DNA from: Cyanobacteria bacterium FACHB-DQ100
GTDB lineage: Bacteria > Cyanobacteriota > Cyanobacteriia > Leptolyngbyales > Leptolyngbyaceae
DNA length: 64,000 bases
Direction: 5' to 3'
Assembly: GCA_014695195.1 (NCBI GenBank)
Contig: JACJNW010000016.1
Coordinates: forward strand, 1-64,000
Below the pieces are notes generated by a model. That model had not been told where the DNA came from and searched no databases. It was given only the letters and a program-made list of their open reading frames with translations. The position numbers and the translations under genes were made by a program. Positions 10,887-15,486 of the stretch are shown piece after piece (positions within the stretch are counted from its first letter, which is position 1; each line of letters opens with the position of its first letter).

Positions 10887-11114
10887 TCAAGAGCAATTCT
10901 GATCTTCGAGAGCTTGAATTGCCAGCAACAATTCTTCTTCCTGAACTTCAAATTCTTCCTCCGGAATCTCACCCAGATCAAAGGCAAGCTGTAAAGCCAA
11001 CAACCGCTTATTCAAGTTCTCGGTCTGATCTAGCTCAGCATCAACTCGCTCTTGGATTTGTTCAGCGATCCAACCCAGCCCAGTCACAGGGGCAAATAAC
11101 AAACGTAAAACCAT
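10887..11114 (-). CDS. gvpG: Gas vesicle protein GvpG
   Basis: 75 residues, a small acidic helical protein (start MVLRLLFAPVTGLGWIAEQI, then a Glu-rich helix with EEEFEVQEEELL). The opening motif and length are diagnostic of GvpG, a minor assembly protein that acts with GvpF and other accessory factors on GvpA. It is the last gene of the minus-strand operon and starts 3 nt after the gvpF stop. Confidence 0.93.
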   Translation of the reverse strand: MVLRLLFAPVTGLGWIAEQIQERVDAELDQTENLNKRLLALQLAFDLGEIPEEEFEVQEEELLLAIQALEDQNCS

Positions 11115-11117
11115 GCT

Positions 11118-11855
11118 TCACCCCCGATCGAACTGTGCGAAATTGTAAGGAGCCGTGAAATCGTTGTAGCGAATCTTCAAACGTCCCTCGAACTGTTGAT
11201 CGAGCCATTCCACTTTTTGACTAAATTCCGATTCCAAATCCCACGGAATTAAGTAGGCTGCATTGTAGATCATTGCTTCTGTCAGCAATTCGTTTTCGAC
11301 TGCTTCAAGCGCCATCGAATTAAGCGTGGTTTGAAAGGCAGCGACGATCGATTCGCGTCGATCGTTCATCGCTTGTTCGATCGCTTGCCCAATGTGGACA
11401 ATCTCATCCATACTGAGCGATTTTCCTTCTAAGCTGTCTCGCTTGGTTCTCAGTGCTGCATCTTGCGCCATCAATGCTTTTAGTTCTTCGGCGCTATCCC
11501 AAAATAGTTTGATGCTGACTTCTCGGTGTCCTGACAGCTTTTCAAACAGACGGTGAAGATGATCAGAGTGCGGTGCAGTCAGTTGGTGAGCAACGGTTTC
11601 CCAAGTGTCGATCGTTAGCCCAAACTGGAGCGGTAATAAGGTGCGATATCCTGCTCTCATCGCTTGTTCTAATACTTTTTCGTGTCCAAGCAGATTGCGC
11701 CGACTTGCAAGATAACGGTCTTGTTTTGCTTCGGAGTACAAAAACGCAAATCCGTCTATGATTTCGGTTTGAACAGGCTTTTGGTCTAGTCCTTGAAGTT
11801 CAAGGTTTTGAGGGCCGGGAGCGGGGAAAATGCCGTAGAGATAAAGATTGCTCAT
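11118..11855 (-). CDS. gvpF: Gas vesicle protein GvpF (GvpL/F family)
   Basis: 245 residues. Opens with MSNLYLYGIFPA, the typical GvpF/L start, followed by LLPLQFGLTI, a signature stretch of the N-terminal domain, and an acidic C-terminal domain (ENELLTEAMIYNAAYLIP). GvpF binds monomeric GvpA and acts early in gas-vesicle assembly, possibly as a chaperone or shell component. It sits between gvpK (13-nt gap) and gvpG (3-nt gap). A second GvpL/F homologue lies at 33.1-33.8 kb. Confidence 0.94.
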   Translation of the reverse strand: MSNLYLYGIFPAPGPQNLELQGLDQKPVQTEIIDGFAFLYSEAKQDRYLASRRNLLGHEKVLEQAMRAGYRTLLPLQFGLTIDTWETVAHQLTAPHSDHLHRLFEKLSGHREVSIKLFWDSAEELKALMAQDAALRTKRDSLEGKSLSMDEIVHIGQAIEQAMNDRRESIVAAFQTTLNSMALEAVENELLTEAMIYNAAYLIPWDLESEFSQKVEWLDQQFEGRLKIRYNDFTAPYNFAQFDRG

Positions 11856-11868
11856 CGTGAATCGGGGG

Positions 11869-12312
11869 CTAAAGGGGCTTGGACGTGAGAACCAGTTGGA
11901 GTTTGGCGTGAATTAGATCAATGTCAGCAAGTCCCAAATCGAGATCACCTTGCAGCACTACGCCTGTATTGAGTAATCGATCGAGCAGTTCCAAAATTGT
12001 GGGACTCGCTGATCGTTCACCCGGATAGTAACCTCCAGCTTTTGGTAATAACGTGCCCACTTCGCCCAGATCAATATTCAAATCTGCTGGATCAATCTCA
12101 AAAATTTCGCACATCCGCACGACTTGTGCCTCTAGTTGGCGCAAACTTTCCGCCGCTCGATCGAGGTCGCGATCGCTCAGTTGTCCGTTGTCCATGCGTC
12201 GGATCACTTGTGCTTCCATCAGTTGACGAATCAGTTCAACGACGGTCAACAGCAAGGGTGCGAGTCCTGATTTGTTTGAGGTGGGGGTGAGTTGGCTTGA
12301 TTGGGGGGACAC
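11869..12312 (-). CDS. gvpK: Gas vesicle protein GvpK
   Basis: 147 residues. The core has GLAPLLLTVVELIRQLMEAQ, then ESLRQLEAQVVRMCEIF, DLNIDLGEVGTLLP and a C-terminal GvpA-like segment (ILELLDRLLNTGVVLQGDLDL), which is the normal GvpK layout. GvpK is an essential accessory protein in gas-vesicle formation, with a small part related to the GvpA shell fold. The first 15 residues are Ser/Thr/Gln-rich and variable. Located between the 115-residue unknown gene (25-nt gap) and gvpF. Confidence 0.94.
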   Translation of the reverse strand: MSPQSSQLTPTSNKSGLAPLLLTVVELIRQLMEAQVIRRMDNGQLSDRDLDRAAESLRQLEAQVVRMCEIFEIDPADLNIDLGEVGTLLPKAGGYYPGERSASPTILELLDRLLNTGVVLQGDLDLGLADIDLIHAKLQLVLTSKPL

Positions 12313-12337
12313 GGGGGGCTTTACTCCTTATCGATCG

Positions 12338-12685
12338 CTATCGCAAACTCCGCACAACATAATCGGGGAGCGATTCCGCCTCAGCCGAATCTTTGAATGT
12401 AATTAACTTCAGGTAACTGGTCTCATCGCCCTCACCTTTGCCATTTGCGCGAGAAAACCAAATTGCTGCTCCAAACTTGCGGTTTTCGCCACTGCGACGG
12501 GTGTAGACATGACCACACCACACCACTTTGGTAACACCATGCTCATCCTGACTAATCGGAGTTGCCCCAATCTTTGACCAATCAAAGTCCTTGTAGTTCT
12601 TTAACGGACGTTGCCAATTTGGGGGATTGTTACCTGCCAATACTTTCATGACAAGCAGCAGTTCTTTTAGAGTGTCGTCGTTCAT
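12338..12685 (-). CDS. Unknown 115-residue protein inside the gas-vesicle operon
   Basis: 115 residues, no Gvp signature recognised. It begins with a helix (DTLKELLLVMKVLAG) and continues with a compact, probably beta-rich part: FDWSKIGATPISQDEHGVT, VVWCGHVYTRR and FGAAIWFSRANGK. The layout recalls small OB-fold or single-stranded-DNA-binding-like proteins seen in cyanobacteria, but this is a weak resemblance from memory. It is embedded in the operon, 36 nt after gvpJ and 25 nt before gvpK, so it is co-transcribed with the gas-vesicle genes and may be an accessory or regulatory factor, or a passenger. Confidence 0.8.
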   Translation of the reverse strand: MNDDTLKELLLVMKVLAGNNPPNWQRPLKNYKDFDWSKIGATPISQDEHGVTKVVWCGHVYTRRSGENRKFGAAIWFSRANGKGEGDETSYLKLITFKDSAEAESLPDYVVRSLR

Positions 12686-12721
12686 GGCGATGAGTAGTAA
12701 TTCTGATCTATAGCCATTATG

Positions 12722-13081
12722 CTACAAATCCTCAAGCAGTGATTCTAGAGTGTTCGTCTGCGTCAATTTTTTCGGCGCTGAGCGGAGGGCCGCGAGTTCT
12801 TTTTCCAGCGTGTCAACGCGATCGAGCAGTCGCTGATTCGTTTCGATTAATTCTTTTGGAGGCGAACTGAAGTGGGGATTGTTTTCCCACCAGTTGATCC
12901 CCATTTCTTTGGCTTTATCGACGGAAGCAATTAAAAGCCGAATCCGAATCGTCAGTAGCTCGGTGGTGGCAACGGAAACGGAAATGTCTCCCGCGATCAC
13001 GATTCCTTTGTCTAGAACGCGCTCTAAGACATCGGCTAACGTTGATCCGGTCGCAGTGGGCATGGATTTCTGACTGCTCAT
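12722..13081 (-). CDS. gvpJ: Gas vesicle protein GvpJ
   Basis: 119 residues. A GvpA-like core (LADVLERVLDKGIVIAGDIS, then TTELLTIRIRLLIASVDKAKEMGINWW) occupies residues 14-69 and is followed by a predicted coiled coil (NQRLLDRVDTLEKELAALR) and a polar tail. The Trp-Trp after the core and the extended tail distinguish GvpJ from the shell protein GvpA. GvpJ is a minor shell-like protein thought to form the cone tips or nucleate assembly. Located between gvpN (24-nt gap) and the unknown gene. Confidence 0.93.
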   Translation of the reverse strand: MSSQKSMPTATGSTLADVLERVLDKGIVIAGDISVSVATTELLTIRIRLLIASVDKAKEMGINWWENNPHFSSPPKELIETNQRLLDRVDTLEKELAALRSAPKKLTQTNTLESLLEDL

Positions 13082-13105: not shown

Positions 13106-14254
13106 TTACGCTTCGGATTGGACAGGTGCAACCGCAAAAAAGCGTCGATCGCGATGAATCACAAGTTCTTGAGCCACTAACGATCGCAGCGCTTCTAAAA
13201 GTTCTGTCCGAGCCAGACTAAACTCGCTTTCAAGCTCAGTAAGTCCTGCTCCGTCTAATCGCAGTAGATAGCGATAAATCTGCTGTTCTTGAGTCAAGTG
13301 TTCAGTGGGCTGATGTGGCAATCCATCGAGTAGTTCTGCTACTTGCGAGGTCAGCGATGGCGGCTCCACCGCGCCGATCATTTCATTCAGCAGTTCCCAG
13401 AGTATTTTAGTTGCATCTTCAAGGGGCAGGCTCGCTCGCGACAGCAAGACATCCGAGCAAATATCCCGAAATTCCGAATCTTCAGGCAGAACAGGGATAT
13501 TGTGTTCCTGGCAAACTTTCGCAATCACTAATGCCGATCGCAGTCCTGATGCTTTGTCTGCCTTGGTTTTTTGCCGAAACGATCGGATTAATCGCACGAT
13601 CAGGGCTGCACTGAGCCGCTCAATTTCGGTCTTCTGAATCAGAATCTCTTGCTGGGTGAGTTCATCCGGTTCTGGAATGTTGATCGTCACCAGTCGATCC
13701 ATTAGCGCATCCTGAGTCGAATGCACACCGCAATACTCTTCCGGGTTTGAGGTCAAAATCGCTCGAAACTGGGGATTGACGCGGATATATTCGGTTTGAT
13801 TGCTCGTCGGAGGCAGCACTAAAAGCTTTTCTTCTAGGGCGGATAGCAAGACGTTATTCACTTCGGGGCGCGATCGATTGAATTCGTCGTACACCAGCGT
13901 AAAACCTTCTCGACAAGCCAGAGTCAATCGCGAATCGACCCAAGTATGCTTCATCTCGTCTTCGACTTTGACGACGCTGTGAATGTAGTTATCCACCACT
14001 TTCTTTCGGGTGTATCCTGCTTGTGCCCCGATGAGATCCGAGCTTTTTGAGTCGTCATCTCCATACATCAGCATGATCGGGCGCGATAACAGGTCTGCTA
14101 AATGCAGCGCTAAGGTCGTTTTACCGACTCCGGCACAGCCGCGTAAATGGACAGAAAAACCGGATTGCAAATATCGCAAAGCGCGAGTTGCAATCCGTTC
14201 GATCGCAGGGGTACTGACAAAACGGCGGGGGCTAGCTCTTAATACAGTCGTCAC
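13106..14254 (-). CDS. gvpN: Gas vesicle AAA ATPase GvpN with C-terminal winged-helix-like extension
   Basis: 382 residues. MoxR-type AAA ATPase: Walker [10 protein letters not shown] (39-47), Walker B LVYDEFNR (120-127), sensor-1 [10 protein letters not shown] and arginine-finger region DALMDRL. GvpN promotes growth of gas vesicles from cones to full-width cylinders. After the AAA core, residues 322-378 form a separate domain ([32 protein letters not shown]) that looks like a small winged helix. The same domain ends GvpC, encoded just upstream. gvpN starts 20 nt after the gvpC stop. Confidence 0.95.
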
Positions 14255-14274
14255 GGGGGCAATCCTCTACTGGT

Positions 14275-15165
14275 TTAAACTGGGGTGGAAATCAAATACA
14301 TCCGATCGCGCTGCGTAATCTTGCCTTGCTGAATTAGCGATCGTAGTCCTTCAACCACTTGAATTCGGGTCATACTGAGCGCGGACTCAAGCTCAGTGAG
14401 ACGAACGCTTTGCATGACTTCGATGTATTCGTAAATTTTTTCGTTGATCAGGGTTTTGGGTGAAGTGGGAGAGGTGGGGAGTGGGGAGTGGGGAGTTTCA
14501 CACAGAGCAGGCTGAAGCGCTTGATCGCCCCACATCGTTTGAGCGAGATTGGCGCGGAATTGTTGAAGCTGCGATCGGAACTCTGCTAATTCAGCGAATA
14601 ATTGAGTCATTTCAGCTTTGCGATCGTGCTGGGCTTGTAGGGCTTTTTCTTGCCGCTCCAATGCTGCATCCGTGAGAAATGCGGCTACATCAGAGCGCAG
14701 TTTCTCCACAAAGCAGGTTAAATCGCGAGTGAGTTGAATTCGTTGTTCAATCCGCGCTTGATGTGCGGCTTCTAAATGCGATCGTGTCTCGGTTTGCAAT
14801 CTTTGAAGATCGGCTTGAAGGCTCCGTTGAAGCGAGGTTACAGTCTCGGTAAGCGTTGCTCGGAATTGGTGTAAGTCGTGCCTCAACTGCTGCGAAGCTA
14901 AGTCACGCTCGGCATGAGCGATCGCAAGAAATTCCTGAGTCTGTTGGTGGAGGGATTCACAGTAGTTTTGCAGGGCTTCGCGCCGTACACGGGCATCGTG
15001 CGATAGTGTTTCCCGAAATAAACTCAGATCGCTGCGGAGTTGAGATGCCTGCGCTTGACGCTGCTTCTGCGTATCTTGTAAAAGCAGCGAAACGGCTTGG
15101 CGACGTTGCACGACCTGTTGAAGTCGGTACTGCCGTTGCTGTTGCCAGGAGTCTTTAAAGGCCAT
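14275..15165 (-). CDS. gvpC: Gas vesicle outer protein GvpC with fused winged-helix-like C-domain
   Basis: 296 residues from ATG 15165 (MAFKDSWQQQR, the usual GvpC opening); an upstream in-frame start at 15198 would add 11 residues. Most of the protein is Gln/Arg/Leu-rich amphipathic helix in which the motif L-x-x-D/E-L-x-x-F-x-x-x-L recurs at residues 43, 94, 145 and, less exactly, 189. GvpC lies on the outside of the GvpA ribs and stiffens the vesicle. A Pro/Ser/Thr linker encoded by a GTGGGGA triple repeat joins this rod to a 57-residue C-terminal domain homologous to the end of GvpN. 102 nt separate it from gvpA. Confidence 0.9.
   Translation of the reverse strand: MAFKDSWQQQRQYRLQQVVQRRQAVSLLLQDTQKQRQAQASQLRSDLSLFRETLSHDARVRREALQNYCESLHQQTQEFLAIAHAERDLASQQLRHDLHQFRATLTETVTSLQRSLQADLQRLQTETRSHLEAAHQARIEQRIQLTRDLTCFVEKLRSDVAAFLTDAALERQEKALQAQHDRKAEMTQLFAELAEFRSQLQQFRANLAQTMWGDQALQPALCETPHSPLPTSPTSPKTLINEKIYEYIEVMQSVRLTELESALSMTRIQVVEGLRSLIQQGKITQRDRMYLISTPV
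14474..14494. repeat. Heptanucleotide tandem repeat inside gvpC
   Basis: Three perfect copies of GTGGGGA in a row (plus strand), read from the minus strand as the Pro/Ser/Thr-rich linker of GvpC. Such short tandemly repeated heptamers (STRRs) are known from cyanobacterial genomes but mostly between genes. Confidence 0.8.
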
Positions 15166-15267: not shown

Positions 15268-15486
15268 CTATGCAGCAGGAACCGCTGCTTGAGCAGTCAA
15301 TCCGACCGCTTCAGCATATTTCAGGTAGGTCTCGACCGAAGCGATTACAACTCGTGCTTCAACCGCCAACAGTTCGATGCCGACGAGTGAAACGCGCACC
15401 CAAGCATCGACCACAATTCCTTTGTCGAGGATACGATCGACCACTTCTGCCAAGCTGGATGAGGAGTTTACTTTTTCAACAGCCAT
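15268..15486 (-). CDS. gvpA: Gas vesicle structural protein GvpA
   Basis: 72 residues. The canonical GvpA core is present: [39 protein letters not shown] and [12 protein letters not shown]. GvpA polymerises into the ribs of the gas-vesicle wall; its hydrophobic inner face excludes water. This is the first gene of the operon gvpA-C-N-J-x-K-F-G and the only gvpA copy in the window. The 392-nt gap upstream, shared with the divergent NanE-GNAT gene, should hold its promoter. Confidence 0.97.

Follow-up and report, generated by a model that had tools for sequence, protein, structure and literature searches.

A predicted winged-helix domain shared by the C-termini of cyanobacterial GvpN and GvpC

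Why would an AAA+ ATPase and a structural rod protein of the same gas vesicle end in the same domain? This question is raised by the gas-vesicle cluster of Cyanobacteria bacterium FACHB-DQ100, which lies in the first 64,000 nucleotides of contig JACJNW010000016.1 (assembly GCA_014695195.1, forward strand), the stretch of DNA that we analyzed and that we call the window. There, the neighboring genes gvpC and gvpN encode proteins with similar C-terminal ends. From sequence comparison, we conclude that both proteins carry one homologous C-terminal domain, which is predicted to fold as a small winged helix and is found in a large share of the cyanobacterial gas-vesicle loci that we searched.

The first-pass annotation had reported a gapless match of 57 residues between GvpN 322-378 and GvpC 240-296, with 22 identities counted by hand, and the exact count gave the same number. 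The motifs LTELES, LRSL and RDR and the final PV are common to both proteins, while EALRSL, given as part of the common pattern, belongs to GvpN only, since GvpC has EGLRSL at that place. The ungapped BLOSUM62 score of this match was 107, compared with 20,000 shuffles in which the mean was -39.9 (standard deviation 15.7) and the highest value 25. Local alignment of the full-length proteins scored 118 (maximum of 62 in 1,000 shuffles), and BLASTP gave 27 identities over 68 residues with an E-value of 2e-11. We then compared profiles built from separate alignments of 30 GvpN domains and 29 GvpC domains (rows L024_N, L037_N, L028_C and L033_C were left out of alignment A3). This comparison of hidden Markov models, which had been named beforehand as the check to make, gave a probability of 99.9 and an E-value of 8.5e-33 over 63 columns, far from chance level. 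At the DNA level, 86 of the 171 bases of the two domain stretches match, and thus one is not a recent copy of the other. When the genome itself was searched with the GvpN domain (E <= 10), we obtained four matches: GvpN, GvpC (3.6e-9) and two weak ones (E 0.018 and 0.82), the former of which falls within a frame that is matched best by WD40 repeats in Pfam.

To predict the fold, we ran AlphaFold2 on the GvpN and the GvpC alignments separately. The 67-residue model of the GvpN domain had a predicted local distance difference test score (pLDDT) of 88.1, with helices at 7-18, 23-30 and 34-46 and strands at 50-53 and 56-59; the 63-residue GvpC model had a pLDDT of 93.3, with helices at 3-18, 23-30 and 34-46 and the same two strands. 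This order of three helices followed by a two-stranded wing, packed compactly, is that of a winged helix-turn-helix (wHTH), an assignment well supported by prediction. The small winged helix that had been proposed from the letters alone was thus recovered in both models and in the fold searches. The top Foldseek rows were mostly winged-helix proteins, with best E-values of 2.2e-2 for GvpN and 1.5e-3 for GvpC, and a second look at the wHTH chains among these matches with VIA-align gave Z values of up to 10.1 and 12.0, respectively. Regarding sequence profiles, the Pfam family TrmB was matched at E <= 0.05 by 41 of 55 domains (best E 9.1e-8), and fewer of them matched MarR, IclR and others; at the sequence level the domain is therefore related to known wHTH families. 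Taken alone, the GvpN domain of the window falls below the Pfam cut-off (20.8 versus 25.6 bits), and its GvpC gave no wHTH family in Pfam beyond a weak DDRGK match (E 0.0075). As the domain is short (57 residues), one could argue that two helical tails have come to resemble each other by chance or convergence. Yet the pairwise E-value of 2e-11, the profile E-value of 8.5e-33 and the same predicted fold from independent alignments make this explanation practically inconceivable, and a chance likeness is refuted by BLASTP, the profile comparison and the separate AlphaFold2 models.

The first-pass annotation had also asked for a search of other cyanobacterial GvpN and GvpC, and this search found the domain widely. 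Among 58 relatives, including the window's genome, 42 have GvpN; we fetched 30 of the loci, the window's included, and detected the domain in every GvpN (30 of 30) and in all but one of the upstream GvpC (29 of 30). We then surveyed 388 genomes of the class, found GvpN at E <= 1e-30 in 174 and examined 147 of these (of the other 27, G510, G473 and G525 were not fetched and the rest came without coordinates). Together with genomes G008 and G050, these make up our main set of 150 gvpN loci from 149 genomes, one of them with two loci, in 22 families. Both proteins carry the domain in 87 of the 150 loci, GvpN only in 13, GvpC only in 12 (11 of them in one family) and neither in 38. After setting aside three loci at contig ends (L133, L140 and L141) and one with no visible GvpC (L170), the counts for the remaining 146 loci were 87, 10, 12 and 37 (Fisher p 2.5e-15, with relatedness ignored). 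By genus, both copies are present in 43 of 73, neither in 13, GvpC only in 9, GvpN only in 6, and two genera are mixed. Of 99 domain-bearing GvpC frames, 97 are directly upstream of gvpN and two are several kb downstream. No locus of the 150 has the domain in a further frame beyond GvpN and at most one other, so within the loci searched the domain is specific to gas-vesicle genes.

Some loci deserve separate mention. In eleven loci of family f24 (L071, L073-L076, L079, L084, L088, L090, L093 and L099), GvpC keeps the domain and the GvpN tail beyond the AAA core has no winged helix. In L134, GvpC is of a short form with 33-residue repeats and no domain. Genome G304 has two gvpN loci, one (of L112 and L172) with a domain-bearing GvpC and the other with a short GvpC of 33-residue repeats.

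A second survey covered named organisms, limited to the best 80 of 114 loci; many of these come from the same genomes as the 150 loci, so the two sets of counts are not independent. Both copies were found in 44 (including Arthrospira PCC 9108, whose GvpC copy is broken), neither in 23, GvpN only in 7 and GvpC only in 6. Among those with both are Leptolyngbya PCC 6406, Oculatella, Nodosilinea, Halomicronema, Kamptonema, Roseofilum and several Nostoc, and among those with neither are Microcystis, Dolichospermum, Anabaenopsis, Nodularia, two Calothrix and Pseudanabaena. The GvpN copy alone is found in Planktothrix rubescens PCC 7821, Sphaerospermopsis, Richelia sinica, some Nostoc and an uncultured organism. 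In a plasmid collection there were 25 GvpN records, mostly from Halobacterium, and in 24 of them the similarity to the window's GvpN ends at residue 315 or earlier. The one going further is from Nostoc sphaeroides, and the same record was the sole match when the collection was searched for the GvpC-type domain. The 35.8-kb plasmid p4 of Nostoc sphaeroides (NZ_CP031945.1, locus L268) carries a gvp cluster whose GvpN matches the domain. A search of the phylum gave matches at E <= 0.01 in 87 genomes, 60 of them outside the window's class (best E 4.4e-8), and we set these aside as weak matches in genes other than those for gas vesicles. Four outside-class frames (L063 and L065-L067) are 136-146 residues long; by eye, L063 resembles a regulator of the DtxR/MntR type, as expected for a wHTH.

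How old is the duplication, and what became of it? Between families, mean identity of the domain is 0.489 among GvpC copies, 0.315 among GvpN copies and 0.360 between GvpN and GvpC (3,537 pairs). The GvpC copy is thus, on its sequence, the more constrained of the two. The GvpN and GvpC copies of the same genome are 0.370 identical (87 pairs), no higher than between families, and therefore the duplication is old. In 12 of the best 80 named loci, all from Nostoc and close kin, gvpC lies 5.0-5.6 kb from gvpN and both have the domain. Given these distant pairs and the identities of 0.370 and 0.360, we rejected recent gene conversion between neighbors. The suggestion that the domain was duplicated between neighboring genes accordingly holds for the duplication itself, which is old; there is no sign of continued homogenization. 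In a tree of the domain (a single row for each genus and type, which gave 105 of 199 rows, and 63 columns), the GvpN and GvpC labels are clustered, with 7 changes versus about 35 in shuffles, and do not form two clean clades. Supported branches force at least two label changes, and a single GvpC clade was not rejected by the approximately unbiased test (p 0.157 over these 63 columns), so that one clean split between GvpN and GvpC copies is neither shown nor rejected. The domain is an old feature of the lineage.

Remnants are also visible. The GvpN tails of L158 and L159 fail the domain search; read by eye, the last residues of the latter are DKEVYNH, from the beginning of helix 1, and in the former EKEVSDYVSQQ is followed by unlike sequence. 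In gvpC of Arthrospira sp. PCC 9108 (L216, 6894-7878, plus strand), the frame of the rod stops short of the domain, whose first part, broken off in helix 3, is in a second frame that overlaps the rod frame. At least some of the absences are therefore losses. By parsimony, presence changed 15 times in GvpN and 6 times in GvpC, counts in which gains and losses are not told apart.

As to function, it is an even call, on the sequence evidence, whether the shared winged helix is a protein-docking module that couples GvpN and GvpC. GvpC forms a spiral round the gas-vesicle cylinder (PMC10185304), and vesicles without GvpN are described as not elongating (PMC11445434). With GvpC rods spiraling round the GvpA shell, each rod end would point its winged helix outward, and GvpN, the AAA+ motor needed to lengthen young vesicles, would bear the same module. 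The modules might pair with each other (GvpN with GvpC, or GvpC with GvpC), or a single partner might be bound by both. Each arrangement would keep GvpN at the GvpC cage and place new GvpC at the sites of GvpA insertion. We infer protein docking, through the same interface in GvpN and GvpC, and a role in shell growth. A precedent comes from Halobacterium, where the C-terminal portion of GvpC is reported to interact with GvpN, with GvpO and with itself (PMC9372576). More specifically, stiffener and growth motor might recognize each other in a homotypic handshake through duplicated copies of one domain, which we consider rather unlikely; if it were true, stiffening would be mechanically licensed by growth, and lineages that drop the domain would have uncoupled growth from reinforcement.

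Both composition and layout are consistent with docking. Mean net charge of the domain is -0.8 in GvpC and -1.5 in GvpN. At position 39, midway along the third (recognition) helix, 94 of 99 GvpC copies have D or E, and 92 of 100 GvpN copies have N, D or E. Negative charge and an acidic residue within the recognition helix would place the domain closer to winged helices that bind proteins than to those that bind DNA. The conserved polar residues of GvpC sit on the third helix and the wing (in the 99 GvpC: R34 99, Q36 90, R42 90, Q52 83, D54 94, R55 95 and Y57 99). The domain lies behind a linker at the end of the GvpC rod and of GvpN, which would be the layout of a docking module, and GvpN frames with the domain range from 363 to 770 residues in the 150 loci, pointing to tethers of variable length. 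It is because of the slightly negative charge and the variable linkers that we favor protein docking over DNA binding.

Several results weigh against a coupling of the two proteins through this domain. In 22 loci with both genes in view, only one copy is kept (12 in GvpC and 10 in GvpN), and therefore each can be retained without the other. The correlated presence in both proteins was not significant once phylogeny, taken from a quick tree of the GvpN core, was allowed for, because there are too few independent changes. Where the domain changed in GvpC (three supported independent pairs), GvpN followed in 1.1 on average, went the opposite way in 0.2 and was unchanged in 1.7; where it changed in GvpN (six supported pairs), GvpC was mostly unchanged (5.6). 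Regarding the fold, Foldseek gave no match at E <= 0.001 for either domain, and many of the structural neighbors are DNA-binding proteins.

This last point leads to the alternatives. A domain with the fold of MarR, IclR, TrmB and Z-alpha might bind nucleic acid, either as an autoregulator of the gvp genes or as a tie of the vesicles to the chromosome. The winged helices of TrmB, MarR and IclR (PF01978, PF01047 and PF09339) are the DNA-binding parts of regulators, and the Gvp domain is like them in fold and profile; moreover, the GvpC wing is rich in R and Q, and the window's cluster contains a DdrB-like gene. The Gvp domain differs from those families in being the C-terminal module of a structural protein and of an AAA+ ATPase and in its negative mean net charge, and its composition leans against DNA binding through a basic recognition helix of the TrmB/MarR type, given what occupies position 39. 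In addition, one of the copies belongs to a shell protein, winged helices that bind proteins (cullin WHB, RPA32C and ESCRT-II) are also among the structural neighbors, and a search of the 120 widely flanked gvp loci, which recovered gvpF and gvpG in only about half of them, gave the DdrB-like gene in none. With all this, we consider nucleic acid binding distinctly improbable. Alternatively, the domain could be a by-product of an old gene fusion, with no essential role, tolerated at both C-termini and lost at random. The several changes of presence in each protein (15 in GvpN and 6 in GvpC by parsimony), the decayed remnants in L158, L159 and L216 and the loose conservation of the GvpN copies (0.315 between families) would fit such a history, while the 0.489 mean identity of the GvpC copies, their near-invariant polar residues and the retention of both copies in 43 of 73 genera argue against it, and we judge it distinctly unlikely.

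The GvpC winged helix might instead be a positional tether, fixing vesicles to the pole, the septum, the thylakoid or the chromosome, with the GvpN copy directing assembly there. The GvpC copy is missing in Planktothrix rubescens PCC 7821 and in Microcystis, Dolichospermum, Anabaenopsis and Nodularia, all well-known planktonic genera, and in Pseudanabaena GvpC has another conserved domain at its end, as though some terminal module were needed in that lineage as well. GvpC is described on the outer surface of the vesicle (PMC10185304), so that an outward module would face the cytoplasm, and benthic Planktothrix is described as keeping a long GvpC (PMC5259702). We consider such a tether unlikely.

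The likeness between GvpC and GvpN is not wholly new. Pancrace et al. 2017 (PMC5259702) described a GvpC of benthic Planktothrix, GvpC40, with a C-terminal stretch of about 60 residues that resembles the GvpC of Geitlerinema PCC 7407, 28 residues of it being 64% identical to GvpN; planktic strains have a shorter GvpC. The text of that paper places the region at the C-terminus and a figure legend at the N-terminus. GvpC40 is thus like the window's GvpC in having a C-terminal stretch related to GvpN. The gas-vesicle section of that account gives no fold and no wider distribution, both of which are given here; we add the boundary of the domain, its predicted fold, its breadth, the age of the duplication and the pattern of joint presence and loss. 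In the open-licence literature, we found no paper that names a winged helix in GvpC or GvpN. The C-terminal domain of haloarchaeal GvpC (Jost and Pfeifer 2022, PMC9372576) is likewise a globular module at the rod end that binds GvpN, GvpO and itself; in contrast, it is described with a zinc-finger motif, and that description reports no copy in GvpN. The match between Halobacterium GvpN and the window's GvpN is confined to residues 12-275. Much-studied systems have no such module: Halobacterium GvpN shows a match of the core only, and Dolichospermum/Anabaena and Microcystis lack the module in both proteins. If the coupling of GvpN and GvpC is true, clusters of the Leptolyngbya, Nodosilinea or Nostoc type would give a direct handle on GvpN-dependent elongation and GvpC addition, through a module of some 60 residues open to deletion, exchange or use as bait. 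The GvpC domain could also be a natural C-terminal attachment point for engineered vesicles.

The cluster of the window lies on the minus strand in the order gvpA, gvpC, gvpN, gvpJ, a DdrB-like gene, gvpK, gvpF and gvpG (Table 1). Its GvpN scores 387.8 bits with TIGR02640 (cut-off 266.8), and the C-terminal domain lies outside this model, whose match stops at residue 273. The closest named GvpN among the best 80 of 114 loci is that of Phormidium tanganyikae FI6-MK23 (84% identity, best segment), which makes a filamentous cyanobacterium likely. The window's GvpC, numbered from the ATG at 15165, matched no GvpC family, whether in Pfam (E up to 1) or in NCBIfam (E up to 0.01), nor the profile of 33-residue repeats, PF01304, up to E 1; the relative L018 comes close to it, with 20.3 bits and a cut-off of 21. 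We named the gene gvpC because it sits between gvpA and gvpN and because of its rod homology, not by a Pfam model. The rod matches those of 85 of the 99 domain-bearing GvpC frames (E < 1e-5). It scored 131 with the consensus of the Anabaena 33-residue repeat (maximum of 93 in 500 rod shuffles) and 97, not significant, with that of Calothrix (maximum of 109 in 500 shuffles), scores that biased composition can inflate. In its place in the cluster and in its rod homology, the protein is like a GvpC. The classical cyanobacterial GvpC (33-residue repeats, PF01304) is likewise a helical rod encoded beside gvpA and gvpN; it differs in ending without the domain and, in the example of L139, in matching PF01304 (E 1.3e-75), which the window's GvpC does not.

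Table 1. Positions of the gas-vesicle genes and protein parts in the window, and of GvpC with the alternative end domain in other loci
Feature	Position	Strand	Evidence
gvpN, 382 residues, AAA+ ATPase and predicted C-terminal winged helix	13106-14254	-	TIGR02640 gas_vesic_GvpN E 2.4e-116 (residues 12-273); AAA_5 E 8.6e-18
GvpN residues 12-273, stretch under the GvpN family model	13436-14221	-	TIGR02640 match
GvpN residues 274-321, end of core and linker to winged helix	13292-13435	-	Position between matched parts
GvpN residues 322-378, predicted C-terminal winged-helix domain	13121-13291	-	BLASTP, profile comparison, AlphaFold2; match in the phylum search 13121-13306, E 8.8e-24
gvpC, 296 residues: helical rod, linker, predicted C-terminal winged helix	14275-15165	-	Place between gvpA and gvpN; rod homology
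GvpC residues 1-213, rod with MWG at its end (VWG in many relatives)	14527-15165	-	Sequence, relatives, rod homology
GvpC residues 214-239, Pro/Ser/Thr-rich linker	14449-14526	-	Sequence
GvpC residues 240-296, predicted C-terminal winged-helix domain	14278-14448	-	BLASTP, profile comparison, AlphaFold2; match in the phylum search 14278-14460, E 4.4e-27
gvpA, upstream in the cluster	15268-15486	-	GvpA subfamily model E 1.6e-40
gvpG, gvpF, gvpK, DdrB-like gene and gvpJ, downstream of gvpN	10887-13081	-	Pfam matches
GvpC with alternative end domain, L169	8325-9380	-	
GvpC with alternative end domain, L187	8471-9508	-	
GvpC with alternative end domain, L174	9240-10502	-	
GvpC with alternative end domain, L181, L186 and others			

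The DdrB-like gene (PF12747, E 3.9e-17), at 12338-12685 on the minus strand, sits between gvpJ and gvpK. We considered its product as a common partner of both domains and rejected it on the search of the 120 widely flanked loci, the reach of which is limited; the 30 short-flank loci are outside it. In the product of gvpK (11869-12312, minus strand), residues 105-143 also match the GvpA family PF00741 (E 5.1e-14), so that it looks like GvpK with a GvpA-like tail.

Finally, the GvpC of Pseudanabaena-type genomes (family f23) and of one f5 genome has a different conserved end domain of about 60 residues (..NDRDTVRDLLAQGANTLKVDPSDILNTLLQM..). In the three proteins checked, this part has no Pfam match, and the GvpN of these loci has no such tail. 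When compared by hhalign as a candidate diverged winged helix, this domain gave a probability of 58.8 with the GvpC set and 19.7 with the GvpN set, and it is possibly a replacement module.

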